From: Cyanocohniella sp. LLY
Lineage (GTDB): Bacteria > Cyanobacteriota > Cyanobacteriia > Cyanobacteriales > Nostocaceae
Reading direction: 5' to 3'
Assembly: GCA_022241785.1 (NCBI GenBank)
Contig: JAKOMP010000006.1
Coordinates: 302 to 64,301 of the forward strand
Length of the DNA stretch: 64,000 nucleotides
The position numbers were made by a program, and so were the translations under genes. How positions within the stretch are numbered: the stretch's first letter is position 1; the number at the start of each line of letters is the position of its first letter. Below the pieces are notes generated by a model. It saw only the letters and a list, made by a program, of their open reading frames with translations. It ran no database searches and was not told the origin of the DNA. Shown one piece after another: positions 20,908 to 36,215 of this stretch.

Positions 20908-21788
20908 GGGATCAATGAAATTTCAACATTTAATCTTCGGGGTGGTTTTGAGAAAATCGAAGTTTCAATCCCTCACAGGGAGTTAATGAAATTTCAACTT
21001 CACGTTATCCAAGATGAACACGGGGTGAAACTCTGGTTTCAATCCCTCATAGGGAGTTAAGGAAATTTCAACGGATTCTGTTCTAAGAAGAGAATCTAAA
21101 AATTACCCTGTTTCAATCCCTCATAGGGAGTTAAGGAAATTTCAACCCGTCCACAAAACAACAAAAGCCAACAATTTTTTCTGTTTCAATCCCTCATAGG
21201 GAGTTAAGGAAATTTCAACCTTCTTGGGCTGTATCATCTACTCCGGTATATTCCCGTTTCAATCCCTCATAGGGAGTTAAGGAAATTTCAACAGACTTCC
21301 TTACTTTTGGCATGACTAACTTTAGTTTCAATCCCTCATAGGGAGTTAAGGAAATTTCAACGTAATAGCCAAATTACTTGGCTGTAAATATTGATTGTTT
21401 CAATCCCTCATAGGGAGTTAAGGAAATTTCAACGGGGTTGGTGAAATTAAAGTTAAGAATATTACGTGTTTCAATCCCTCATAGGGAGTTAAGGAAATTT
21501 CAACCTTCGCACCACCGAGAGCGGTTTTGCAGCTGTAAGTTTCAATCCCTCATAGGGAGTTAAGGAAATTTCAACGAACAACAAAAGTATAAGAAGTTTT
21601 CATCTTTTTGTTTCAATCCCTCATAGGGAGTTAAGGAAATTTCAACTCTATGAATAATCAGCAAATCTTACAATGGATTAGTTTCAATCCCTCATAGGGA
21701 GTTAAGGAAATTTCAACTACTCAACGCTCCCGTGCGTTTGCTCTTTCTTGAGTTTCAATCCCTCATAGGGAGTTAAGGAAATTTCAAC
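20908..21788 (-). CRISPR. Type I-D CRISPR array: 12 full 37-nt repeats plus one degenerate terminal half-repeat; crRNA strand is minus (repeat GTTGAAATTTCCTTAACTCCCTATGAGGGATTGAAAC)
   Basis: Repeats start at 20962, 21036, 21110, 21183, 21256, 21325, 21397, 21468, 21539, 21610, 21681, 21752; spacers 32-37 nt; degeneracy at the low-coordinate end puts the leader near cas2. Confidence 0.99.
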
Positions 21789-21999: not shown

Positions 22000-22293
22000 C
22001 TACCCATCCGCGCATTCTGCAAAGAAAATACTATCATCACGAATCTTTTGCCCACCAATACGTTCTATTTTACCTACACAGCAAGCACACATCGAGTAAA
22101 AAAGAATGCTATCGCTTTCAGGCTTAATTAATTTGTTTAAGCGCGATCGCAATCTTGCATACTGAGTATCAGTTAGATAGCATTCAAACACACTATACTG
22201 TACCCATTGACCGTAAGACTTGAGTATTTTGTGGATTTTGGTGCGGCGTTTGTCTTCGGAAATATCGTAGGACACAATCACATTCATTGGCAA
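22000..22293 (-). CDS. cas2: CRISPR-associated endonuclease Cas2
   Basis: MNVIVSYDISEDKRRTKIHKILKSYGQWVQYSVFEC. Confidence 0.97.
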   Translation of the reverse strand: MPMNVIVSYDISEDKRRTKIHKILKSYGQWVQYSVFECYLTDTQYARLRSRLNKLIKPESDSILFYSMCACCVGKIERIGGQKIRDDSIFFAECADG

Positions 22294-22305
22294 GCTCTCC
22301 TGTTC

Positions 22306-23322
22306 CTACTTCAAAACCAATGGGGGGTATTTTTCGGTTTCTCCCATCAAGTATTTAGCCAATAATCGAGCCTGTAGCTCAAATGCCTCTTGGTAAGTAC
22401 ACTTGCGCCCTAATACTGGATGCTTAAACTCAGACTGTTTTTTTTGCGCGTATTGTTGCAAAAATCTTTTTCGTCCTTCTGGGGTTAAGGATACTGCACC
22501 ACTCAAAGGCTCTGTTACAAAATCGCTTTTTGTCAACAATTGCTTATTCAATGTAGACAAGACTACCGCATCTACTACTAAAGGACGAAATTCTTCCATT
22601 AAGTCTAATGCCAATGACGGTCTACCATAGCGTTCACAATGTAAGTATCCTAAATATGGATCAAATCCGGCAATATTGACTGCACCTTGAATGTCATGCC
22701 GTAATAATGAATAACCAAAGCTAAGTAAAGAATTAACTGGATCTGTTGGCGGACGGCGCACACGTTTAGTAAAACTAAATTCTGTAGTCCGAATTAATTG
22801 GTCAAAGCAAGCAAAATAAGCAGCACTCCCAGCACCTTCTAATCCCCGCAATGAATTAATATTTTTTGTAGTCTCGATTGGTGCGATCGCTTGTTCTAAA
22901 CGTGTTACATTCGCAGATAAATCCAAGCCTGGGCTTTCACGTTGGCGACGGATGAGAAAACTACGGTAGTTTTTCAACTTTCCACGAACAAACCCTTGTA
23001 CTACATGAATTGCTTGGACTGACTCACCTATTGCCTGCCATTGAGCCTTACGCACAAAAATATTCTTGGTCACTTCTGGTTGTAAAGTCCCTAAGTAACG
23101 ACCATTATTTGTTAGAAAAGTTAGAGGGATGTGCCTCTCTAGTAATTCAGAAATAGCAGCAGGTGAAATGGTTGCTCGTCCTAAAATTACAACACCATCT
23201 ATTTTAATTAATGGAACATCTAAAATTGTCTTTTTATTGAATTTGACATGAAGACGCTCGTCAACTTTGCCAACAAAAGCATCTTCTTGAGTAACGTACA
23301 CTGTTCCCATAGTTACATCCAC
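22306..23322 (-). CDS. cas1: CRISPR-associated endonuclease Cas1 (type I-D)
   Basis: MGTVYVTQEDAFVGKVDERLHVKF...GAGSAAYFACFDQLIR...NSLLSFGYSLLRHDIQGAVNIAGFDPYLGYLH. Confidence 0.97.
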   Translation of the reverse strand: MDVTMGTVYVTQEDAFVGKVDERLHVKFNKKTILDVPLIKIDGVVILGRATISPAAISELLERHIPLTFLTNNGRYLGTLQPEVTKNIFVRKAQWQAIGESVQAIHVVQGFVRGKLKNYRSFLIRRQRESPGLDLSANVTRLEQAIAPIETTKNINSLRGLEGAGSAAYFACFDQLIRTTEFSFTKRVRRPPTDPVNSLLSFGYSLLRHDIQGAVNIAGFDPYLGYLHCERYGRPSLALDLMEEFRPLVVDAVVLSTLNKQLLTKSDFVTEPLSGAVSLTPEGRKRFLQQYAQKKQSEFKHPVLGRKCTYQEAFELQARLLAKYLMGETEKYPPLVLK

Positions 23323-23354
23323 AATTAATCAATTGACTGAGTAATGATTCTTAA

Positions 23355-23948
23355 TTACTTAGCTTCTTGATAGCGTCCTACTGTTTCTACAGCTTGCGGT
23401 AAACAATGAGAATATAAACTACATCCATCACACCGTTTAGCTTTGATAGCTTTAGGCATTGCACCTGTAACTAATAGTGTTTGCACAGCTTCAATCGTAG
23501 CGATCGCAGTTTGACGCAATTGTTCTGAAATCTCTACTAGTTGACGTTGGTGAGAGTGTGCATAGTAGACATATCCAGTGTTGATAGGTTTCCCTGTCAT
23601 TTCTTCTAAACACAAGGCTTGAGCGCAGACTTGTAATTCATCATTATCCCACTCGCCTTTACGCCCTCTTTTGTACTCTATTGGATAAAATTCACCATTT
23701 TCTGATTCAATTAAATCTGATTTGCCTATTAACTTGTATCTATCAGATTTCAACCAAATCGCCCTTATTTGCCAAGTATCGTCACGGTTTACATCTCCAG
23801 TTGTATGAACGCGCTCATGTAAAGTTGTACCTTCAATTGTGTATTGGTTGTCAATAAATTCTCCTGCACAAAACATTCGCCAGCAGCGATGTGGACAGTA
23901 GGAATACTGATTTAAGGCTGCAATTGGAATATAATCACTCTCATTCAT
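23355..23948 (-). CDS. cas4: CRISPR-associated exonuclease Cas4
   Basis: NQYSYCPHRCWRMF...PIEYKRGRKG...CDGCSLYSHCLP. Confidence 0.95.
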   Translation of the reverse strand: MNESDYIPIAALNQYSYCPHRCWRMFCAGEFIDNQYTIEGTTLHERVHTTGDVNRDDTWQIRAIWLKSDRYKLIGKSDLIESENGEFYPIEYKRGRKGEWDNDELQVCAQALCLEEMTGKPINTGYVYYAHSHQRQLVEISEQLRQTAIATIEAVQTLLVTGAMPKAIKAKRCDGCSLYSHCLPQAVETVGRYQEAK

Positions 23949-23977
23949 AATTTAATTTGGTGTTTGGATAGAAAAGC

Positions 23978-24796
23978 TTATACTCGACGCACCATTCCCA
24001 TACCCATCGTTGTTTTACGCCCTAAACCTGCGTATAGTGCAAAATTAGCTAATGTATTCATTTGCTTAATTACTAATGGCTCAACATCTCCCAATATCCG
24101 GTAGCCAATTCGACCAACACAACCTATGAATTTGCTTTCATAATTAGTCAAAACTTCAGTATTGATATTAAAAGCACTGGGATAAACCGATTCAATGGCA
24201 ATACTAGCAATTTCCATCCCACTATATTTATTCCAACGGCTAAGAAGGCTATTGAATACAGATTCTTTTAGAGGTAAAACATTGTCATATCCACCTTGGC
24301 GGAATGATACAGGCGTAGCGAAGGTGAAATCAAGATTGCGTTCTCTATCACTAGCTTGCTCATACAACTGCTCATAGGTGCAAGCATTAGCCCAAGGTTG
24401 CGTTAATAGTGGTGTACCTTGAATACTAGTAATGTGTAAGTTTGCAGAACCCAAATGCCAAGGGTATTTAGGGTTAAGATTCAACCACAGTTCAGTTAAT
24501 TTACTAAATAAAGTGTCATCAAGTAGGGAAATACGCCACCAGCAGGGAGTACCAGCTGCGATAGGTTTTTGATGACTAAATTGCAAAGTCTGGTGATTCT
24601 GCTTGTGTTGCCGTTGTATTTGTAACGGTGAAAGAGTGAATGCTTTATCTGCTTTAGAGGAGTGCAAATAGTCTCCCAAACTGGAATTAACGGAACTGAT
24701 CAAAGTAAGAAAGAGGGCATGAAGATGTCTGCCAGTGAGAAATTCGGGGTATATGGGAGACTGGGGAATGAGGTTAAGGATGAGGCTATAAGGCAT
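23978..24796 (-). CDS. cas6: CRISPR-associated endoribonuclease Cas6
   Basis: Position between cas5d and cas4; C-terminal glycine-rich GLGRKTTMGMGMVRRV. Confidence 0.9.
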   Translation of the reverse strand: MPYSLILNLIPQSPIYPEFLTGRHLHALFLTLISSVNSSLGDYLHSSKADKAFTLSPLQIQRQHKQNHQTLQFSHQKPIAAGTPCWWRISLLDDTLFSKLTELWLNLNPKYPWHLGSANLHITSIQGTPLLTQPWANACTYEQLYEQASDRERNLDFTFATPVSFRQGGYDNVLPLKESVFNSLLSRWNKYSGMEIASIAIESVYPSAFNINTEVLTNYESKFIGCVGRIGYRILGDVEPLVIKQMNTLANFALYAGLGRKTTMGMGMVRRV

Positions 24797-24845
24797 GAAT
24801 AATTAAAATGGTAAATGTAGGGTGGGCAATGCCCACCACTTGAGA

Positions 24846-25565
24846 TTAAGCTTTAAATTGATACCGCATTTTTGCCGGTAAGCGCACTTTTTCAGTTTTG
24901 CTGGGATTGTCGAATTCGTAGTACTGTCCTTGGCGAATGCTAACATTTTGAATCAGACTCACCGGGGGCATATTTACCACATCATAGCTAACGACTTGAT
25001 GAGTAAACATCACATCCAAAGGATTTAATGGATAAGAAAAAAAGAAATCCCCTGTTTTTAATTCAATTTTGGTAACTTCTTGAATAATGAGTTCAGCTTT
25101 ACTCATCCATTTACCTAAGCGAATCCATTTTGGTAGCTTTAATTGCTTTTGAGAAATTATAAACAACTCAAAGTTACTTTCCGGTGCAATTTCTTTTGCC
25201 CTACCAAAACTAGGAATATTTTTTTGCGTTTTCTCCATCTCCACATGGTAGTTATTGTTAGCATACTTCCAGGTGTTAAGAGTTGTAGAATGATTAACTG
25301 CACGTGCAGGAGTCACATAAATTTCTTGATGATTTAGCGGTGTTAGATGTACCTCATATTTAGGAACTTGTTCGGAGCAAAAATAACGATAGGAATGTTC
25401 TTCAGCAACGGTAGTAGAGTAAATTTGGCTATCAACTAAACCCAGTGCATAACAGAGAGCATAGTTGTGAATTATTGGCTCTGTTTCATACAAACGACCG
25501 ATTTCACGAGTTGCGTAATAGAGGCTGTCATGAAGTTCTATTTGACAGAGGTAAATAAATACCAT
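24846..25565 (-). CDS. csc1: Type I-D Cas5 (Csc1)
   Basis: MVFIYLCQIELHDSLYYATREIGRLYETEPIIHNYALCYALGL; overlaps csc2 stop by 1 nt. Confidence 0.93.
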   Translation of the reverse strand: MVFIYLCQIELHDSLYYATREIGRLYETEPIIHNYALCYALGLVDSQIYSTTVAEEHSYRYFCSEQVPKYEVHLTPLNHQEIYVTPARAVNHSTTLNTWKYANNNYHVEMEKTQKNIPSFGRAKEIAPESNFELFIISQKQLKLPKWIRLGKWMSKAELIIQEVTKIELKTGDFFFSYPLNPLDVMFTHQVVSYDVVNMPPVSLIQNVSIRQGQYYEFDNPSKTEKVRLPAKMRYQFKA

Positions 25566-26581
25566 TACTCTTTCCCCGCTTTAGCCGCAGTTTTCTTCTT
25601 GGTAATATGAGCTTTAGCATAAGCTTTAGCTTCTGCATCAGCCTTTTGCAAAATTGCCTGAATTCCTTTCTCACTTCCTATTAAAGTTTTGACTTCATTA
25701 ATTAGGGATACAAAAGCATCACCAATTAAATCTGTGTGAACAATAAACTCATCAGCCATTAACGCTTCAATAGCCTTTTTAGCAGCAGTAATTACATCAT
25801 CTTCATCTAGTGGATCGGGAGCATTTAAGGTATTATTAGATTTCATTTGGTCATATATTGCCTGAGTCCAACGCAGGTTACTAGTGATTTCGCCATCAGC
25901 AAATACAACACCAATTAACTCATTTCTAACTCGACCTGTACGGGTGGTTTGCGCTCCATAATGACGAGTTCGCAGAATGTTATTAAAAACGTAAAGGAAG
26001 CTAGCTTCAGTGGGGTCTTTCAAGGTGACAATACTAGGAAAGAAAACTTGCGGTCTAATGTGGTCTTGCTGATTAATTCGACTCGTGACTTCACCAGGTT
26101 TAGAACCATTTTCACCCTTAGAAGCCATCGTGCCATTTTCATAAGGAGCATTTAGGGTAAATGTTTCGTGTGATTCATCAAAAGCTGTAATTGAAAATGC
26201 CGTGTCTACCACAACTTTTGATTTTTCAGAACCAGAGTCACCAATAGCAAATCCGTAAATGATGCAATCAGGATTATCCATTGCAAAATTCACGTTGTAT
26301 TCGCATTCTTCAGCCGTCATTAATCCATAATTACGCAGTAATTCCCGACCAACTAAACGCTCGGGAGTAGACTGTTTGCGCTTGAACATTGACAACCGGC
26401 TAATTGTGGTTTTGTCTTTAACTCCTGCTCTTACCCGTGCTTTGTTCAGTTCTGCATCTGTCTGGAATAGAGGGTAAGATTCAGTAATACGAATAGTCAA
26501 AAAATGAACATATTTACCCATTGGTTTGTATGGAATTTCAGTTTGAAAGAATTTTGATTCAACAGTTTTTAAAATTGCCAT
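25565..26581 (-). CDS. csc2: Type I-D Cas7 (Csc2)
   Basis: KYVHFLTIRITESYPLFQTDAELNKARVRAG...LRTRHYGAQTTRTGRVRNELIGV. Confidence 0.95.
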   Translation of the reverse strand: MAILKTVESKFFQTEIPYKPMGKYVHFLTIRITESYPLFQTDAELNKARVRAGVKDKTTISRLSMFKRKQSTPERLVGRELLRNYGLMTAEECEYNVNFAMDNPDCIIYGFAIGDSGSEKSKVVVDTAFSITAFDESHETFTLNAPYENGTMASKGENGSKPGEVTSRINQQDHIRPQVFFPSIVTLKDPTEASFLYVFNNILRTRHYGAQTTRTGRVRNELIGVVFADGEITSNLRWTQAIYDQMKSNNTLNAPDPLDEDDVITAAKKAIEALMADEFIVHTDLIGDAFVSLINEVKTLIGSEKGIQAILQKADAEAKAYAKAHITKKKTAAKAGKE

Positions 26582-26775: not shown

Positions 26776-27237
26776 TTATTCATTTTCATCATTTTCAACT
26801 TTAGATTTTCCTGCATTTTCTTTATCATCTTCAAGACGGTAAAGAAACTCACAGGTATCTCGAATTAAGTTGAGTTGACGGCCTGCTAAACGAGCGCGAT
26901 CGCCTGCAAATGAGTTATCAAATACCTCCACCACAAAATACTTGGCAAAATCTAGAACAGCTTGCCGTTCTTCCTCACGTTTGCTCATGATCCAACGTCC
27001 TTCAGCAGTAGAAGAATGAACACGATCCATGAGTTTAAAAACTTCTGCTGCAACAGCTGCAACTAATGTTTCTCCCTGAAACACACTTGACTCAGCTTTG
27101 AGTATAGTTTCAGCCGCAATATCAACTGGTTTCAACACAGCATTAGACTTAGGATTATAACGCTTATTAGCTCGGTAAAATCTGCGGTATAAATCTGTTA
27201 ATTTCTGAGGATGATTCAGACTTGATGCTTCTCCCAC
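26776..27237 (-). CDS. Candidate internally initiated Cas11d small subunit (about 153 aa) from the 3' end of cas10d
   Basis: In-frame GTG at 27237 preceded by GGAG with 9-nt spacing (ATGGAGCAATTAATTGTGGGAGAAGCA); an in-frame ATG lies at 27252. Confidence 0.5.
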   Translation of the reverse strand: MGEASSLNHPQKLTDLYRRFYRANKRYNPKSNAVLKPVDIAAETILKAESSVFQGETLVAAVAAEVFKLMDRVHSSTAEGRWIMSKREEERQAVLDFAKYFVVEVFDNSFAGDRARLAGRQLNLIRDTCEFLYRLEDDKENAGKSKVENDENE

Positions 27238-30129
27238 AATTAATTGCTCCATATTAGTGTCATATTTCACATAAGGATCAAAACAAGGATAAAAATGATA
27301 GGCATAAAGCCGGATTTTCTCGATTCGTGCTGTTTCCGATCCCTGGTTACGCACCCAGCGATTGAGATAAGAAAAAACGTACAACGGACTGGTTTCAAAA
27401 TCTTTAGCCAGTTCTGTAAATCTCCCCCAATTGGCATCGTAACCAGACTTACCCTGTCGCGCATTCACATCTAAATGAATGGCGTAAGCGGCGGTAAGCA
27501 CATTTAAAGGTGCTGGGTATTGGATGCCGTTTTCGTTCCAGCCTTCGAGGATGTAGTCAAGACGGAAGCGATCGCGCCTTACTAAAGCACGGAAAGCATG
27601 AGGCGCACTATCAAGGAAAACGCTTTCCTCAAACTCAGCGCCATCGTTAAAAGGTGGAATTGGTGACTCTGAAACTACAGTTTTAACATCTAAAATCATC
27701 GGGAAAGCAAACGCTAACCAAGTTGGCATTACCCAAGATTCTGTATCGGTGCTGTCTCTTCCTGGCGGGAGCGCCATGAAGTAAAATGTTAAAGGCTGGT
27801 CTTCAGGATAGGAAAGTTTAAAGGTGCGGTCTTTGTCACGCTGGAGGTTTTCATCGATTAAGAAACTATCTACACTTTGGTAGCGATCGCGCCCCAAATC
27901 CGCTTGTAAATCCTTACTGATAAAATGATTGCGAATGCTGGTATCAAAACGAGTTTGAGCAATACCATTGTAGGCTTTCTGCAAAAACTTGTTAGTCTCT
28001 GGAGTAAAGTAATAAGTAGGATAAAAGTAGAGATAGCGATATTTACCATCTTCAAATCGTTTACCTACAGCTTGAGTTTGATTCATCAAAATTTGCCTCA
28101 GCATCATCTCCACACCTGCAATACTGGAGATATTGCGTTTAGCGTTGGAACCTCCTAACATTTGCTTGTTTGTATAAACTTGAGGGGTAAATAAAACTGC
28201 TGATTCCATTTGCTCAGTAACCGTGTAAGCAGAATGAGAAATTGAGCAGATTAATTGTTTCCCTCGCCCTGATTTTTTCGCAGCATTGTAATTATCTAAC
28301 TCATTTAGAAATGTTTCAACTTGAGTTTTAACAGATGGCTCTTGATTAGTGCCTGGTAACATGACAACTCGTTTTACCCAAAGCCTTAAATCATCCCAAC
28401 CATCAGGTAATTGATATTGAGAAATTATCGGACAAATTAAGGTTGTCAAATAGTCAATTACTTGCTGACAAGCTTCGCGTACATCTTCAATCCCTGGATG
28501 ATGTTCTAAATATTTAGCCGCAAGATAATACCATTCATAAGGTACTCCTCCGGTATTTCCTTTTAACTTGTTTTCTTTGAGACTTTCATTAATGCGTTTA
28601 ATTTCTCTAATTTGGGGTAAACATTCTGTTAAATTCCAAAACTCTGCAACTTTGTGAGTTAAATCAAAATCGGGAACTGCTGGCAGCTTTTTATCTTTCT
28701 TACGAGCAGAATCAACGCGATTAACTGTCTCTTGCCAAATCTTTCGGCTAACTAAATCACCAAACTCTGCTATTTGGTCAATGCGGATATCGTCTTCAAA
28801 TTTGAAATCATAATCAGCAGATAAAACATTTCGTTGCTGAAACTTATTCAGATTTTCGCTGCGACTTTTAGCAACAGAGCCTTTATTAGGGTTTAAGATG
28901 CGTAATGTAGCATCTAAGGCTACTTCCATCAAGTCTATATTATCAAAAAATAAGTTGTAATATTCGGCATATTTCATGCCTTTGCCATCTCTACCAAATC
29001 CTGTTTGTCTGAGGCGTAATTGACCTGCACAAAGGGATTTAATACTGTTAACTACACGGTCTGGTAAATCTGACGGCGAGATAGCTGGCGCATTGCGCGA
29101 AGCCAAGTAAATTACGCCTGTTGGCAGATATAACAAAGGTTCATAATAGATATTTTCATCAGTATTCAGACTGATATGAGCCTGAATTAAAGCATTATTC
29201 ACCACATTAGTTAAAACACCCCGATTCTCAGCAATGCTGTGATAGGTAAATTTCAACTGTCCATCACTGAGGCTGTGGATGATTTCTTTGAGTCTAGGAT
29301 GTTCTGCATCCTGGGGATGTTTAACAATTGAGGCGAGAGAATCAGCTAAACAAGTTAAATCAGATAAACTGCGGAGGGTACGGTCTTTGAGAATAGGATT
29401 CAAGCCAAATTCAGAAAAATTCCAGTTAGTATCCCAACGGCGTTGAGCATTATAAGCCATGCATAACAAATCATCTACATATTCTCGATAAGCTTCAGGA
29501 TTTTCTGGATTTATAAAGTTATCGAGTCCTAGTTGGTGAACTTTTTTATCAATAATTTCACGATGTTCTGCTAACGGCAACTTGCGGCAGTTTTCAGGTA
29601 CATCAGGAAACTTTTCAAAATCATGTAAAATAAATCCAGCAATTACTAATCTGCGCTCTCGCTCTTTAACCACTCGCTGCACTGTGGTATTAAGTTTTTC
29701 TAAACGTTTCTCAATTAAATTAGCTGGGAATAATCCATTAAGTAAGTGAGTATTCAGTGATTGGTCAGCAGCGTTATCTCGTCTAACTTTAGTTTTCCCT
29801 TCAGCTTCTCGCTGTTGGTCAATCTCATCAAAAAACTTACCGCCTTTCGCCGTTACACCAATGGCTATCCGCAACAAATTTGGTAAAACATATTCACCAA
29901 AGTCTGCCATTACCTTATCATCTGGATTTTGAGATTGAATAGCTTCACGCAATAGTTTAAGTGTTAATAATTCGCCTTCGGTTTCAATAGTACGGTCTGA
30001 AGAATCGCCATCAAAACCAAAATCACCTGATAACCAATTATCATCTGCTACTTCAGAATTTACATCATTTTCTGTTTCTAAGAGTGATAATTGTTGATAC
30101 TCATCTGAAGCTTTATTTTTTTTAGCCAT
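26776..30129 (-). CDS. cas10d: Type I-D Cas10d (Csc3) with HD nuclease motif
   Basis: LVIAGFILHDFEKFPDVPE; LNTHLLNGLFPANLIEKRL; position in I-D operon. Confidence 0.95.
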   Translation of the reverse strand: MAKKNKASDEYQQLSLLETENDVNSEVADDNWLSGDFGFDGDSSDRTIETEGELLTLKLLREAIQSQNPDDKVMADFGEYVLPNLLRIAIGVTAKGGKFFDEIDQQREAEGKTKVRRDNAADQSLNTHLLNGLFPANLIEKRLEKLNTTVQRVVKERERRLVIAGFILHDFEKFPDVPENCRKLPLAEHREIIDKKVHQLGLDNFINPENPEAYREYVDDLLCMAYNAQRRWDTNWNFSEFGLNPILKDRTLRSLSDLTCLADSLASIVKHPQDAEHPRLKEIIHSLSDGQLKFTYHSIAENRGVLTNVVNNALIQAHISLNTDENIYYEPLLYLPTGVIYLASRNAPAISPSDLPDRVVNSIKSLCAGQLRLRQTGFGRDGKGMKYAEYYNLFFDNIDLMEVALDATLRILNPNKGSVAKSRSENLNKFQQRNVLSADYDFKFEDDIRIDQIAEFGDLVSRKIWQETVNRVDSARKKDKKLPAVPDFDLTHKVAEFWNLTECLPQIREIKRINESLKENKLKGNTGGVPYEWYYLAAKYLEHHPGIEDVREACQQVIDYLTTLICPIISQYQLPDGWDDLRLWVKRVVMLPGTNQEPSVKTQVETFLNELDNYNAAKKSGRGKQLICSISHSAYTVTEQMESAVLFTPQVYTNKQMLGGSNAKRNISSIAGVEMMLRQILMNQTQAVGKRFEDGKYRYLYFYPTYYFTPETNKFLQKAYNGIAQTRFDTSIRNHFISKDLQADLGRDRYQSVDSFLIDENLQRDKDRTFKLSYPEDQPLTFYFMALPPGRDSTDTESWVMPTWLAFAFPMILDVKTVVSESPIPPFNDGAEFEESVFLDSAPHAFRALVRRDRFRLDYILEGWNENGIQYPAPLNVLTAAYAIHLDVNARQGKSGYDANWGRFTELAKDFETSPLYVFSYLNRWVRNQGSETARIEKIRLYAYHFYPCFDPYVKYDTNMEQLIVGEASSLNHPQKLTDLYRRFYRANKRYNPKSNAVLKPVDIAAETILKAESSVFQGETLVAAVAAEVFKLMDRVHSSTAEGRWIMSKREEERQAVLDFAKYFVVEVFDNSFAGDRARLAGRQLNLIRDTCEFLYRLEDDKENAGKSKVENDENE

Positions 30130-30574
30130 CTTCTTGACTCAATGAATTTAAATAAGAACTAACTTGGCGCACATAAAGCGGATAGTGTTGTAATGCCAAA
30201 CTGATAGCTTTAAAAACTTGCCGTGGATCTATTTCGTCATATTCATGTACAAGACGATTCCTTAATCCTGATGATGGTGCTATTTGTCTGGCTAATTCAA
30301 CAGTAATTACACTGTATTGACCAAGAATAATAAAAGAATTAAAGTTGGTTTCTGACTTACCTGGATTTAGCTTAGATAATATATGGTCATTGATATCTAT
30401 AGCTGCTTGAGCCATTAATTGTAAAAGTCTCTCGGTAATTAGTTGAGTATCAAAGTCAAGCAGGTAATCCTCTAAAGTAATTTGCTCAAATCTTTTAAGA
30501 TTATCAAGATAACGAGCAATAAAATCCAACCTAGTTGTGACAATCACAGTATCTATCTTGGTCATACACCCCAC
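30122..30574 (-). CDS. HepT-like HEPN (DUF86) protein
   Basis: SGLRNRLVHEYDEIDP (RX4HxY); overlaps cas10d start by 8 nt. Confidence 0.88.
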   Translation of the reverse strand: MGCMTKIDTVIVTTRLDFIARYLDNLKRFEQITLEDYLLDFDTQLITERLLQLMAQAAIDINDHILSKLNPGKSETNFNSFIILGQYSVITVELARQIAPSSGLRNRLVHEYDEIDPRQVFKAISLALQHYPLYVRQVSSYLNSLSQEDG

Positions 30575-31008
30575 CTTTGGAGAAACTGCTCAATATGTTG
30601 TCGGGTAATATTTTCAATTTTTTTAAGCTCTGAATTACTCAGTAGATATCTTTGTTTGAATTTTTCAAATTCTCCTAGATTATCTTCATACAAAAGCTTC
30701 CCATCACGAGCAACAAAATGTGATATTAGTTCAGAGCATTGATTAAGTTCTACAACGTCTATTTGATCAGAATTTATTTTGAATAATTCGCCAATAACTA
30801 TAGGTAATTCAAACCAGAGAAAAGCATTATCTTTTACATAATTCTCACGTTGTTCCTGATCACACAAAACTGCAAAATCCCAGTCACTTTTAGCGTGAGT
30901 GTTCCCAGTAGCTCTAGAACCAAACAGAATTAACATTTTGAGATAAGGAATTTTTTCAGGAAGTTGTTGAGCTAATTCTCTAAGTTCTGTAATTGTTGGT
31001 GTTTTCAT
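30562..31008 (-). CDS. MntA-like minimal nucleotidyltransferase antitoxin
   Basis: ILFGSRATGNTHAKSDWDFAVL (GSx10DxD); overlaps HepT by 13 nt. Confidence 0.88.
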   Translation of the reverse strand: MKTPTITELRELAQQLPEKIPYLKMLILFGSRATGNTHAKSDWDFAVLCDQEQRENYVKDNAFLWFELPIVIGELFKINSDQIDVVELNQCSELISHFVARDGKLLYEDNLGEFEKFKQRYLLSNSELKKIENITRQHIEQFLQRWGV

Positions 31009-31046: not shown

Positions 31047-32066
31047 TTATTCCACTCCTTGTAGTAGTTTAGCAACTTGTTCTGGAGCCGGAAGTTGATT
31101 TTTTAATTCTTGAGGCAACGTAGAAAACAGTTTATAAGTTGCGATACCAATTGGTTTATTCGATTCTCTCAGTGCATACTCAACAATAGTTTTATCCTTG
31201 GATTTGCAAAGAATAATTCCGATTGAGGGATTTTCGTCTGGGAATCGAGATAAATCATCTAAAGCCGCCAGATAAAATTGCATTTTTCCCACATACTCAG
31301 GTAGGAACTCTCCAGTTTTTAACTCAATCGCAACTAGACATTTTAATTGGCGGTGATACAGCAACAGGTCAATAAAAAATTCTTTATCGCTAACTTCTAA
31401 GCGATACTGACTGCCAACAAAAGTAAACCGCCCACCCATTTCTTGCAAGAATGGTTCAACTCTTGCCAAAATTGCCTGTTCTAGCTGTCGTTCACTGTGT
31501 TCATCTGCTAGTTCCAAGAAATCAAAAGTATATTCATCTTTGACAGCTAGTTTTAATTGGTTACGAATCTCTGCTGGAACAGTTTTATCAAAATTAGTCT
31601 GATTTAACAGAGTCTTTTCATAAGTTTGATTTTCAATTTGGTGAATCAAAACATTCTTTGTCCAGCCAAATTTGCGAGTCATCCTAATATAAAACTCTCG
31701 TTCGAGGTCATCTTTGCATTTCTCTATAATGACCAGATTGTGAGTCCATCCAATTTCTCGCACCATTGGTGCGAGTTTTTCATTGTTGACGTATGATTCA
31801 TAAAAAAGCCTCATCCGCCAGAGGTTAGCAGCAGAAAACCCGCTAATTCCTGGAAACTCTGCTTGTAAGTCTTTTGCTAACTGTTCTACTACGGATTTTC
31901 CCCAACTAGCGCCCTGCTGTTGAGTAACAATTATCTGTCCAATGTCCCAGTAGAGGTTAATCATTTCCCGATTAACTGCTTTTAGTGCTTCGTATTGGGC
32001 TGAACGAATACGCTGTTTTATTTCCATTAGCAAATGTCTGTAATCGTTTGAAATGGGGTTACTCAT
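31047..32066 (-). CDS. DUF1016/YhcG-family PD-(D/E)XK nuclease
   Basis: INLYWDIGQIIVTQQQGASWGKSVVEQLAKDLQAEFPGISGFSAANLWRMRLFYESY; FFIDLLLYHRQLKCLVAIELKTGEF. Confidence 0.93.
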   Translation of the reverse strand: MSNPISNDYRHLLMEIKQRIRSAQYEALKAVNREMINLYWDIGQIIVTQQQGASWGKSVVEQLAKDLQAEFPGISGFSAANLWRMRLFYESYVNNEKLAPMVREIGWTHNLVIIEKCKDDLEREFYIRMTRKFGWTKNVLIHQIENQTYEKTLLNQTNFDKTVPAEIRNQLKLAVKDEYTFDFLELADEHSERQLEQAILARVEPFLQEMGGRFTFVGSQYRLEVSDKEFFIDLLLYHRQLKCLVAIELKTGEFLPEYVGKMQFYLAALDDLSRFPDENPSIGIILCKSKDKTIVEYALRESNKPIGIATYKLFSTLPQELKNQLPAPEQVAKLLQGVE

Positions 32067-32302
32067 AATGTAAAAGGTTCAACTCGCTCATGACTAACTA
32101 GGCGACGCGCATAGATTAAACAGGCTTGCACATCTTCCAGTTCTAACCAGGGATAAGCTTCTAGTAAGGTTTCGATAGTATCTCCCGCCCTCAACATCCC
32201 CAAAATATGTTCAACCGCAAGGCGACGACCTCGAATAATTGGTTTACCCTCAAAGATTTTAGGGTTAACTGTAATTCTTTCTAGTAGTAAGTGTTCATTC
32301 AT
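32063..32302 (-). CDS. DUF433 antitoxin-like protein
   Basis: LLERITVNPKIFEGKPIIRGRRLAVEHILGMLRAGDTIETLLEAYPWLELEDVQACLIYA; 4-nt overlap with DUF1016 gene. Confidence 0.9.
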   Translation of the reverse strand: MNEHLLLERITVNPKIFEGKPIIRGRRLAVEHILGMLRAGDTIETLLEAYPWLELEDVQACLIYARRLVSHERVEPFTL

Positions 32303-32553: not shown

Positions 32554-32760
32554 TTATGCTGCCAATAACCGATATTGAAATTGGTTATGAGCAACTTTTC
32601 GCTTTTCAATTAAGTAGCCTTTCTTGCGAGCTTCAAACACTGTGTGTCCAAATCGCCAACTAATCTTAGCGGCTAGTTCGTCGCCTAAATGCCACTTACC
32701 ATCTTTGAGAACTGAGATTAGTCGCTCAAGGTTTGTCAATTTGACAAGCATGGTTATCAC
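32554..32760 (-). CDS. Small winged-helix-like protein (68 aa), possible regulator
   Basis: LERLISVLKDGKWHLGDELAAKISWRFGHTVFEARKKGYLIEKRKVAHNQFQYRL; SD-like AAAGGAGGTGATAACC upstream. Confidence 0.65.
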   Translation of the reverse strand: MITMLVKLTNLERLISVLKDGKWHLGDELAAKISWRFGHTVFEARKKGYLIEKRKVAHNQFQYRLLAA

Positions 32761-32839: not shown

Positions 32840-32868
32840 ACGCTACATAATGCGATAGCTCTTGTCAA
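32840..32868 (-). promoter_or_regulatory. Candidate promoter for wHTH-TA-cas operon (TTGACA-N17-TAGCGT)
   Basis: Perfect -35 TTGACA at 32868-32863 on minus strand, weak -10. Confidence 0.4.
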
Positions 32869-32875
32869 GCATTTC

Positions 32876-32923
32876 AATAAGCTTAGACTTATTCAACAAC
32901 TAATAAGCGTTGACTTATTCAAC
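32876..32923. promoter_or_regulatory. Two tandem palindromic sites AATAAG-N6-CTTATT-CAAC; each reads GTT-GAATAAGTC on minus strand
   Basis: aataagcttagacttattcaac and aataagcgttgacttattcaac; both match the mini-CRISPR spacer 5' half. Confidence 0.75.
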
Positions 32924-32965
32924 CTTGTATGAAATCCTTGTATACATGGAGCTTTACGCGCACAA

Positions 32966-33072
32966 AAAACAATCCTTTAAAATCCCTATTAGGGATTGAA
33001 ACGAATAAGTCTGTGCTTAAAACCGTAAGCTCTTGTCATAAATCAACTAAAATCCCTATCAGGGATTGAAAC
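32966..33072 (+). CRISPR. Divergent two-repeat, one-spacer mini-CRISPR (candidate crRNA-like regulatory RNA)
   Basis: Repeat 3' parts ATCCCTATTAGGGATTGAAAC (ends 33002) and ATCCCTATCAGGGATTGAAAC (ends 33072); 70-nt period; ATTGAAAC handle as in the main array. Confidence 0.8.
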
Positions 33073-33073
33073 C

Positions 33074-35251
33074 TCAAACAACCCATATCTCATCTCCTTT
33101 GCTTTTAAACGTGTATGCAAGCGTATCCAGCAACAGTGCAGAGTGACCAAAAGCGATCGCATACGGCGCAGTAGCATCATGAAAGCTATACTGATCGCTG
33201 ATGCCATAAATCTGAAAATTCATCGGTAGCCTTAGCCGCATCCGCACTTCAGCAAGAGGACGGCGAATCACGTAACAAACCAAACCTTCCTTTTTTAGAC
33301 GCTTGTTAATTTCTCCAACCCAATAGTTGTCAGGTTGCCAAATTTCCACACCAGTCAAAACCTGAACTTTCCAAGCGTCAGCAATTTGCTGCAAGTTACC
33401 AGAATAGGTAAACTTCCAGTTCAGCCTTTCCTCTCGGTAAGAACGCAATTTCATAAATGCTAGACAATGAGCAAATCTACCTTTGGCGATGGGTTGTCCG
33501 GTGCGTTCTGCGGTTTCTTTGAGTGTCCGTATAAATGCCGCTTCCGTCCACATTTCAATTTCTAAATTTCCCAAAATACCCGGTAAATCGTAGGTTTTAA
33601 ACCTATCTGCTTCGTTTTCTTCCGTTAAGTCGTATAAACCACATTGCAAAGGACTTGAACCGCGAAAACTAGCAGCATCCTCAGCAATAGGATTTCCTGA
33701 TTTACCAGAAAGCGCTTGCCAATCTTTCGCCCATCCTTGAATACGTCCAGCTTGTGACTTCAGACTTGTTTCAAATACTTGTTCACAGGCTTCTTGAAAC
33801 TTCTCTCGGCTTTGGGCATACTGTTGTTTAATTGTGCGATCACTCAACTGATAAAACAGCCAAAATGATTGCACAGCCCCCCAACGACGATAATAACCAC
33901 GAAAATCGTTGATTTGTCGATAATTCTCAGTAATTGTATTGTGAAAATAGGGGCGATCGCAAATACTATTCCCCTCTAACGGTGGCGTATCTCCCTTAAA
34001 CAATCGCTCTACCAAAAAGTTAGGAACTAAAGAAAAAGCTGTGAAATTCTCAAACTTAATTTTTTGACCATCTTTTTCATATTCGTCATGCCTTCCTAAG
34101 CGTCCTAAACGTTGGATAAAGTTACCTGCATCAGATGATTCAAAAATTAAAAAATTGATTTTTAAATCAACCCCAACATCAATTGTGCTAGTACCAATAA
34201 CCAAATCAGCAGAAAGGCTTCGCTCTTTTTCTCCTTTTCCCGATAGCCCTGTATTTTCTCCAACTTTCAATCCGCAAGGCTGTAATATTTCCCGAAAAAA
34301 CTGAGTTAGACGTTTGACTGCTGCAATTGAGTTAAGGATAATTGCGCCTTTACTTCCTGGATACTGCTGAAACTGAGCCAAAATCAAATCACTATTTTCT
34401 TTGAGCCAGGTTTCCGAAGCTTTAAACGACGGTTCCAAAGGAATAAAATTCAGCGTAATTGTCCGTGCTACCTGTCGCCAGCCCTGTGCTTGCAGTTGCT
34501 GCCCTTGTTCTGGTGTATCAGGAAATTGATATTTATGTTGTTTGAGCGGATCAATTTCTTGACAACTAAATCCTGCTTTTTCTAATCGCCCAATTAAGTT
34601 TGTATCTGGTGTGGCTGAGAGAAACAGAAATTTTTTGCGGCGATTTGTACAGCGAATTAACAACATTGTGTTAATCACACTAGCAATTTGTGGAGCAGCG
34701 AAAACGTGAAATTCATCAAAAATAAATAAGTCAAAATCTTTATCAATTCTGCCCCATAACTTATCTGGACTATCGCCATGAATTATATAAGCACCTCGAT
34801 GTAGGTAGTGAAAAATATCGGGGTTAGTTAATAATGCTTCTCTCTGGTTAGTGAGAGTTGCGATCGCCGCCCCTTTTTTTAAGCCCTCATTTTCAGCATA
34901 AATCTCTAAATCAGCCCCACTGAGTCGCACTACACGCGGCTGATTTTCTGGCTGGAATTTTTCAACATATCCTTTAATCTGCGTTTCTTGATCGCGGGCG
35001 AGTTCGTTAGTTGGGTAAAGTCCAATGGCGGAAAACTCTCCTTGAAGCACTTCTAGGTAAGCCGCTAGACTTTTACCATCGCCAGTCATTGCAGTATTGA
35101 ACACGACATCAATATTGGGATCGCGTAATGCTTCTAAAGTTGCTGCTTGATGCCAAGATAGTGACCAATTTTGAGGTAGTTGCACCCCATCAGGTGTGGG
35201 GACTGTTTGCGAATAAACAGGTTTGAGAGTAATTTGGTAACTTTCGGACAT
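33074..35251 (-). CDS. cas3: Type I-D CRISPR helicase Cas3'
   Basis: VFNTAMTGDGKSLAAYL Walker A; LFIFDEFHVFAAP; FLSATPD; NFIQRLGRLGRHDE. Confidence 0.93.
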   Translation of the reverse strand: MSESYQITLKPVYSQTVPTPDGVQLPQNWSLSWHQAATLEALRDPNIDVVFNTAMTGDGKSLAAYLEVLQGEFSAIGLYPTNELARDQETQIKGYVEKFQPENQPRVVRLSGADLEIYAENEGLKKGAAIATLTNQREALLTNPDIFHYLHRGAYIIHGDSPDKLWGRIDKDFDLFIFDEFHVFAAPQIASVINTMLLIRCTNRRKKFLFLSATPDTNLIGRLEKAGFSCQEIDPLKQHKYQFPDTPEQGQQLQAQGWRQVARTITLNFIPLEPSFKASETWLKENSDLILAQFQQYPGSKGAIILNSIAAVKRLTQFFREILQPCGLKVGENTGLSGKGEKERSLSADLVIGTSTIDVGVDLKINFLIFESSDAGNFIQRLGRLGRHDEYEKDGQKIKFENFTAFSLVPNFLVERLFKGDTPPLEGNSICDRPYFHNTITENYRQINDFRGYYRRWGAVQSFWLFYQLSDRTIKQQYAQSREKFQEACEQVFETSLKSQAGRIQGWAKDWQALSGKSGNPIAEDAASFRGSSPLQCGLYDLTEENEADRFKTYDLPGILGNLEIEMWTEAAFIRTLKETAERTGQPIAKGRFAHCLAFMKLRSYREERLNWKFTYSGNLQQIADAWKVQVLTGVEIWQPDNYWVGEINKRLKKEGLVCYVIRRPLAEVRMRLRLPMNFQIYGISDQYSFHDATAPYAIAFGHSALLLDTLAYTFKSKGDEIWVV

Positions 35252-35345: not shown

Positions 35346-36215
35346 ATGAGTCGAAAAGGTCAGTCGATAACTTTATCTATTTCAGAACGTGATAAAGCCG
35401 AGCTAGAAAACCTGGCTTTGGAGTTTGGTATGATGTGGGGTGATCGCCCGAATATCTCTAAACTTATAGAAGCGATCGCCCGTCATCAGTTAATTATTCG
35501 TAAAAATCACGACTGGTCAGAAGAACGTATTCGTGCGCTTGACCGTGCAATGCGTTTATTAACCGACAATGGGCAAAATGACCAAGCACAAACAATAGCA
35601 CAATTATTACTAGAACGTAGCGAACTACCAATACTTCTGCGTACCAATATTGAAAGTTTTTTAGGAAATTTACACCCACAATGGCGTTTGGAAATTGACC
35701 GTTATATCTTACGTCAGGAAGCATTTCAACTCAGTTATCAAGATGCAGCACAACGAGTTTTTAATTTTACTGTCTATTATGCTAAAGTTACACCCCATGA
35801 AAAGCGGCAATATCTAGATTGCTGGTGTAAAGAGACAGAAGGTAATTCTGATGTGGAAGAATTACGTCATAATTGGAGTTTACGTTTAGACCGTATTCAA
35901 GACGCTGCTGTTTTACCTGTTGCTGGTCAGTGGCGTACTGCTGGACTTGCACAGATAGACATAGAGATGCATCTGCTGGGTAATTTAGGCTTTGCTTATC
36001 AGTCCAAACCAGAAGACAAAATAAATGACTGGCTACCAGAGACACAACGAGTAAAGCAAGTTATCAGGAGTGTCTCTAATACATTTTGGTTTACTAGGGA
36101 AGTGATGCAATATGCACCAGATTGTGTAATTGTATCGCCAAAAAGTGTACAAGTACTCATTCAAAAGAAAATTAAAACTCTTTATCACAATTACCATTTA
36201 GATGTATCTTCATGA
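35346..36215 (+). CDS. WYL-domain-type transcriptional regulator associated with I-D CRISPR
   Basis: RHH-like N-terminus MSRKGQSITLSISERDKAELENLALEFG; WYL-like central and C-terminal region; divergent to cas3'. Confidence 0.65.
   Translation: MSRKGQSITLSISERDKAELENLALEFGMMWGDRPNISKLIEAIARHQLIIRKNHDWSEERIRALDRAMRLLTDNGQNDQAQTIAQLLLERSELPILLRTNIESFLGNLHPQWRLEIDRYILRQEAFQLSYQDAAQRVFNFTVYYAKVTPHEKRQYLDCWCKETEGNSDVEELRHNWSLRLDRIQDAAVLPVAGQWRTAGLAQIDIEMHLLGNLGFAYQSKPEDKINDWLPETQRVKQVIRSVSNTFWFTREVMQYAPDCVIVSPKSVQVLIQKKIKTLYHNYHLDVSS

Follow-up and report, generated by a model that had tools for sequence, protein, structure and literature searches.

RNAs of the CreR type have been reported for CRISPR-Cas types I-B, I-E and V-A (review, PMC13131331), and a further review describes them in general terms for 'type I and V-A' (PMC12737573). 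The pairing of the related CreA was dissected by mutation: it needs positions 1-5 and 7-11 of the guide, and not positions 6 or 12 (PMC8501985). In type I systems, I-D included, every sixth base is flipped out of the crRNA-DNA pairing, the PAM of type I-D is GTN/GTH, and the 2023 review of this subtype names a WYL regulator as its only regulator (PMC10212523). We found no description of CreR for type I-D or for cyanobacteria in reviews up to April 2026; these reviews set the scope of CreR as used here, and a primary paper may mention I-D in passing.

We analyzed a 64-kb window from a Nostoc-like cyanobacterium, in which a mini-CRISPR with a single spacer adjoins a type I-D CRISPR-Cas operon. 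The element at 32966-33072 is very probably the gene of a CreR-type cas-regulating RNA, i.e. a cas autorepressor of the I-D system. Across about a hundred related loci of cyanobacteria, the guide and its promoter site have coevolved, so that the Cas complex most likely turns down its own genes by means of the mini-CRISPR RNA.

The region of interest (32862-33072) is flanked by the 3' end of cas3' and by an operon that, like cas3', runs on the minus strand. The stop codon of Cas3', the type I-D helicase (33074-35251, minus strand), abuts the mini-CRISPR, and a WYL-type gene is found beyond it (35346-36215). The operon has the order HTH-DUF433-YhcG-MntA-HepT-cas10d-csc2-csc1-cas6-cas4-cas1-cas2 and is followed by the main I-D array, with 12 repeats GTTGAAATTTCCTTAACTCCCTATGAGGGATTGAAAC (20962-21788, minus strand). 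Its first gene behind the controlled promoter encodes a small HTH protein (32554-32751) that was recognized by PADLOC (HTH, E=7e-28) and had no Pfam match; the ATG at 32751, behind AGGAGG, is a likelier start than the GTG at 32760. It is followed by genes for a DUF433 protein (32063-32302, Pfam scan), a DUF1016/YhcG PDDEXK nuclease-like protein (31047-32066, Pfam scan and PADLOC), a nucleotidyltransferase of the MntA antitoxin family (30562-31008), a HEPN RNase of the HepT toxin family (30122-30574), Cas10d/Csc3, which is the large subunit and the PAM reader in type I-D (26776-30129), and Csc2, Csc1, Cas6, Cas4, Cas1 and Cas2 (22000-26581), all on the minus strand. This Cas10d is the only one in the 6.78-Mb genome. 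When the sequence was rechecked, all the coordinates given in a preliminary description of the locus were correct, and the downstream genes, from HTH, DUF433, DUF1016/YhcG, MntA and HepT to Cas10d onward, were those it had named. The window also contains an ordinary PsrR1 photosynthesis regulatory sRNA (Rfam RF02701, 53855-53938, minus strand).

The mini-CRISPR is a 107-bp repeat-spacer-repeat on the plus strand, opposite to cas3'. Its first degenerate repeat (psi-R1, 32966-33002) carries the hairpin CCCTATTAGGG and the 8-nt 5' handle ATTGAAAC (32995-33002), and compared with the repeat of the I-D array its 3' half is the same but for one base, while its 5' half has diverged. The second degenerate repeat (psi-R2, 33036-33072) reaches to within 1 nt of the cas3' stop codon and matches Rfam CRISPR-DR5 (33039-33072). 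The repeats retain CCCTATnAGGGATTGAAAC, the stretch that makes up the hairpin and 8-nt handle in the main array, and have lost the 5' half. Such degenerate repeats beside cas genes, with the Cas6 hairpin and the 5' handle kept (CCCTATTAGGGATTGAAAC) and the 5' half diverged, are characteristic of CreR. The guide GAATAAGTCTGTGCTTAAAACCGTAAGCTCTTG (33003-33035, plus strand) directly follows the handle, begins with GAATAAGTCTGTGCTTA and has the seed GAATAAGTCTG. The 3' half of the repeat is common to other arrays elsewhere in the genome, so the assignment of Cas6 to the mini-CRISPR RNA is putative. We also observed an 11-mer, AGCTCTTGTCA, in the same direction at 32858-32868 (the complement of the -35 region) and at 33029-33039 (the 3' part of the spacer), which may be due to chance. 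An orphan single repeat, CCATATTAGGGATTGAAAC (G000:C215:49285; L101, L279), located by bioD/TldD-type genes and far from CRISPR genes, was considered as a second CreR and rejected; no GT-flanked seed match was found within 8.5 kb of it.

The sequence GTTGAATAAGTCnnnGCTTA occurs in front of the operon as two tandem copies on the minus strand, 26 bp apart, and each copy belongs to a PAM-flanked match to the guide. Site 1 (32862-32897) comprises a GTT PAM (32897-32895) and a protospacer (32894-32862) which, read from 32894 as GAATAAGTCTAAGCTTA, matches spacer positions 1-10 and 13-17 (15/17). Site 2 (32888-32923) lies 26 nt upstream, with a GTT PAM (32923-32921) and a protospacer (32920-32888) that, from 32920, reads GAATAAGTCAACGCTTA and matches positions 1-9 and 13-17 (14/17). 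When all positions of both strands of the 64 kb were compared with the spacer, these were the two top matches after the spacer itself, both with GTT. The pattern GTHGAATANGTCNNNGCTTA, which includes the PAM, has exactly two matches without mismatch in the 6.78-Mb genome, sites 1 and 2, and no match at one mismatch. The sites are 5' of the cas10d operon and overlie its predicted promoter, composed of TTGACA (32868-32863), N17 and TAGCGT (32845-32840) on the minus strand. The TTGACA falls within the 33-nt footprint of site 1, and both this box and the two GTT-flanked seed matches are where the preliminary description had placed them. A consensus scan of the window left this predicted promoter below threshold because its -10 box is weak (TAGCGT). 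The arrangement TTGACA-N17-TAnnnT is shared with five relatives (L061, L065, L074, L076, L077), and in the window, L061, L065 and L074 it lies 26-27 nt inside the footprint of the site with the best score. Other spacer clusters have a TATAAT-type box within the footprint, and the best promoter-like hexamers were inside the footprint in 28 of 45 cases, a raw count without a null, and outside it in some clusters. On the plus strand, TTCAAC (32918-32923), N17 and TATACA (32941-32946) form a candidate promoter of the mini-CRISPR. Because it overlaps site 2, in the PAM and the first bases, the complex might limit its own guide as well.

For the comparative survey, we collected cas3' (TIGR03158) hits from 295 genomes of the order Cyanobacteriales and the DNA surrounding 139 loci. 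This gave 138 loci oriented on the cas3' stop codon (137 of the 139, plus the window). A mini-repeat ending with ATTGAAAN was found 20-170 nt past this stop codon, on the opposite strand, in 63 of the 138 loci; the last base of the handle is often altered among related loci, as in this ending. Each spacer was scored at ten seed positions (1-5 and 7-11) against every GTN-flanked position in the next 420 bp, and the null was made by swapping spacers between unrelated spacer clusters (3,530 pairs). At least 8 of the ten positions match between a spacer and its own site in 57 of the 63 loci, against 3.6% of the swapped pairs, and at least 9 match in 51 loci, against 0.5%. A recognizable site is absent in six of the 63 (L042, L067, L075, L134, L143, L159). 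The spacers fall into 25 clusters, whose seeds are quite different (for example ATGACCTAAT, ACACATTCAC, TTCATTCTCT, CTCGCCTACT, ACAGACTCAT, TTTATCTACT, CATGTATTGT and ACTGTTGCCT), and when clusters are counted instead of loci 22 of the 25 reach 8 and 19 reach 9 (binomial p about 1e-39). If the search does not require a PAM, GTC or GTT still precedes 17/17 cluster-best sites scoring at least 9; these PAMs, like the GTT of the window, fit the GTN/GTH of type I-D (PMC10212523). A second, partly overlapping set of named genomes (Nostoc, Anabaena, Desmonostoc, Cylindrospermum, Calothrix, Scytonema, Leptolyngbya, Phormidesmis, Pseudanabaena and others) has a matched pair in 47 of 52 cases, and plasmid pANA02 of Anabaena sp. 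90 has a matched guide and site too. Tandem target sites, 18-31 nt apart, recur among relatives. We dropped a blind search for any pair of seed and GTH-flanked site that did not use the handle: it was flooded by chance pairs at 9/10, and the handle is therefore required for clean counts.

The match between guide and site is unevenly distributed along the spacer. Weighted by cluster (22 spacer clusters), it is 1.0, 0.94, 1.0, 0.92 and 1.0 at positions 1-5, and 0.82, 1.0, 1.0, 0.81 and 0.79 at positions 7-11. It falls to 0.24 at position 6 and 0.23 at position 12, declines from 0.79 through 0.70, 0.65 and 0.53 to 0.37 over positions 13-17, and is near chance from there on (0.18 at position 18, around 0.12-0.38 beyond), so that matching ends near position 16. 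The values at 1-5 and 7-11 are inflated because the sites were picked on these positions, a selection for which the swapped null allows; positions 6, 12 and 13-17 were used only to break ties. Taken as predicted pairing, this profile is what a type I Cascade leaves as its footprint, and it coincides exactly with the minimal seed rule of CreA. Changes within the seed family of the window are compensatory. Its 35 distinct pairs divide into 20 with G at position 1 and 15 with A, and the site is concordant in 35/35 (p=3e-10); positions 8 and 9 are concordant in 34/35 each, against just 15/35 and 7/35 for the free positions 6 and 12. Covariation across the order shows, as far as sequences can, that guide and site pair through positions 1-5, 7-11 and partly 13-17. 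The preliminary description had proposed an alignment of orthologous I-D loci and held that a promoter motif kept beside a changed spacer seed would speak against its reading. The comparison came out the opposite way, with guide and promoter site covarying (57/63, 47/52, and 35/35 at position 1), and its view of the RNA as a self-directed crRNA that recognizes a PAM-flanked site on the cas promoter by the seed only is strongly supported.

These results bear directly on two other explanations of the repeated motif. Its three copies might be operators of a DNA-binding protein, either the product of the HTH gene or the WYL regulator beyond cas3', and the copy in the mini-CRISPR would then be incidental. 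The promoter copies do form a 22-nt direct repeat that includes the GTT, and an HTH gene follows them, but the spacer copy begins exactly at the handle and lacks the GTT, seeds of unrelated sequence elsewhere keep matching the promoter of their own locus, and many loci with a matched pair lack this HTH gene. A periodicity of 6 nt, with positions 6, 12 and 18 free, is also unexpected for a protein operator. Covariation and position profile largely refute this explanation, which we consider highly improbable. Even harder to credit is an accident in which a spacer was once acquired from the promoter and is now decaying. Self-targeting spacers do occur in general. However, a spacer decaying neutrally should lose matches evenly over its length, whereas the observed match is nearly complete at 1-5 and 7-11 and no better than chance at the other positions; moreover, loci across the order keep the place beside cas3' and the changes are compensatory, and we regard this reading as refuted by the covariation.

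The element is not present in all I-D loci. A matched pair is missing in 45 of the 101 loci where cas3' is followed by cas10d, and the module is absent from pSYSA of Synechocystis 6803, where these two genes are 13 bp apart and leave no room for it. Hence, the element is not needed for I-D function. The first gene is often close behind cas3' in the loci without the RNA (within 120 bp in 24/45), which look as if promoter and RNA had vanished together. We observed the same arrangement in another I-D clade, a distant one with about 46% identity in Cas10d (L128, L131, L132, L169, L173, L175), with the seed ACTGTCGCCTT and with the target site on the strand opposite to the usual one. The stems of the mini-repeat have changed in L246, L249 and L250 yet still pair (CCCG-GCAA-CGGG in place of CCCTATCAGGG), and the seed and site match in these loci. 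In some loci (L181, L095, L147, L143, L050 and others) the flanks of the repeat and spacer could form a locus-specific outer stem of 7-10 bp. The stem is striking in single loci, but only moderately above swapped pairs (7/25 above the 95th percentile, p=5e-4); it was not evident in the fold of the window, and we set it aside as a general feature.

Pairing footprint and covariation are best explained by a CreR-type autorepressor in type I-D. To judge from the repeat, Cas6 would cleave a short plus-strand transcript at the repeat hairpin. The product, starting with AUUGAAAC-GAAUAAGUC, would enter the type I-D Cascade as an ordinary crRNA does. Cascade would then find the two tandem GTT sites in the operon promoter and pair with them through positions 1-5, 7-11 and partly 13-17. 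A pairing that ends near position 16 would be too short for a full R-loop and cutting by Cas3'/Cas10d, so the complex would only block: given the footprint and the biology of CreA and CreR, it would sit on the -35 region and prevent transcription. Free Cascade, when plentiful, would turn the operon down, and withdrawal of the complex by canonical crRNAs, anti-CRISPRs or loss of Cascade would release it. The promoter may in this way sense both crRNA load and anti-CRISPRs.

The genes behind this promoter raise the question of what the RNA is for. In cyanobacterial I-D loci, the cas3'-cas10d junction (L039-L182; 30122-32751 in the window) often carries MNT-HEPN, DUF433-DUF5615, YhcG and Uma2-like genes as cargo. 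The preliminary description had combined the CreR-like RNA with a protein-toxin guardian module, in which loss of Cascade would de-repress the toxins. The first part stands, owing to the covariation across the order; the second is not supported. As a rival to autorepression, a module akin to CreTA or CrePA would serve mainly to hold down the embedded toxin-like genes, such that loss or inhibition of Cascade lets a toxin kill or arrest the cell. Toxin-antitoxin-type genes do stand between cas10d and the controlled promoter, both in the window and in 41 of the 56 loci with a matched pair, and CrePA shows that protein toxins can be under such control (PMC12737573). Yet loci without the RNA have this cargo just as often (28/45): among the 101 cas3'-cas10d loci we found no link between toxin genes and the presence of the RNA (Fisher p=0.28), and 15 of the 56 RNA-bearing loci have none of these genes. 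In the window, HepT is the recognizable toxin, and its own antitoxin, MntA, is encoded ahead of it in the same operon, so that de-repression would free the two at once, and the Pfam scan of the cargo (DUF433, YhcG, MntA and HepT families) revealed no KilA-N toxin of the CreP type. We therefore rejected the guardian role as main purpose on the contingency test and consider it unlikely. Since cargo is equally common with and without the RNA, it is probably the cas operon that the RNA serves, with the cargo swept under its control.

It is somewhat less likely still that the RNA is aimed at this promoter and acts otherwise, by activation, by blocking the small first gene only, or by controlling its own promoter too. 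The divergent arrangement, the overlap of the plus-strand TTCAAC-N17-TATACA with site 2, and the association of a small first ORF with the RNA (47/56 against 16/45, p=1e-6, with crude ORF calls) are compatible with such actions. Autorepression of the cas operon is favored by site 1, which covers the -35 of the predicted promoter, and by precedent, as repression is the known outcome of such promoter pairing for both CreA and CreR. The small first gene belongs to several unrelated families across loci (HTH, coiled-coil, RAMA, unknown). We can only speculate, with more doubt than confidence, that the controlled promoter is a layered sensor, where withdrawal of Cascade by anti-CRISPRs or crRNA overload frees the Cas proteins, the small first gene and often toxin-type genes. 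If so, the cas operon itself would be a back-up or abortive response triggered by anti-CRISPRs, and the released first gene would be a fast-evolving one of the HTH, coiled-coil or RAMA types.

The autorepressor reading extends RNA-guided cas autoregulation to I-D, a type I/III hybrid subtype, and to a whole cyanobacterial order. It also provides an evolutionary read-out of how Cascade would pair in vivo (seed at 1-5 and 7-11, flipped bases at 6, 12 and 18, PAM GTC/GTT), and places toxin-antitoxin-type genes and small genes of unknown family under a promoter that may sense Cascade. The regulation of cyanobacterial I-D systems becomes directly testable, and the lack of the module in Synechocystis 6803 explains why this model strain could not reveal it.

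Compared with known systems, the element resembles CreR as a mini-CRISPR with degenerate repeats that lies beside cas genes and would encode a crRNA-like RNA, in its seed-only match to a PAM-flanked site of a cas promoter, here a predicted one, and, by analogy, in the autorepression without cleavage expected here. It differs from CreR by its subtype (I-D, with a GTC/GTT PAM and a Cas10d effector), by its place at the cas3'-cas10d junction, where cas3' lies upstream of the controlled operon and is not part of it, by the small first gene and the frequent toxin-antitoxin-type genes before cas10d, and by its frequent tandem sites. With CreA of CreTA (type I-B haloarchaea, PMC8501985) it shares an identical pairing rule, two degenerate repeats and a PAM-flanked site in a promoter, here a predicted one. 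The promoter repressed in CreTA drives the RNA toxin CreT, of which we noticed none here; the target is a protein-coding operon, the cas operon itself. As in CrePA, where CreA represses a protein toxin (PMC12737573), protein-coding genes would be under a crRNA-like repressor RNA; unlike CrePA, the cargo has no KilA-N toxin, toxins are accompanied by antitoxins, and toxin genes show no association with the RNA. Finally, Sll7009/WYL regulates the type I-D system of Synechocystis 6803 (PMC10212523) and is thus a regulator of the same subtype, with a WYL-type gene also present in the window, but it is a protein and acts in a system with only 13 bp between cas3' and cas10d, while the regulator described here is most likely an RNA encoded in the cas3'-cas10d junction.
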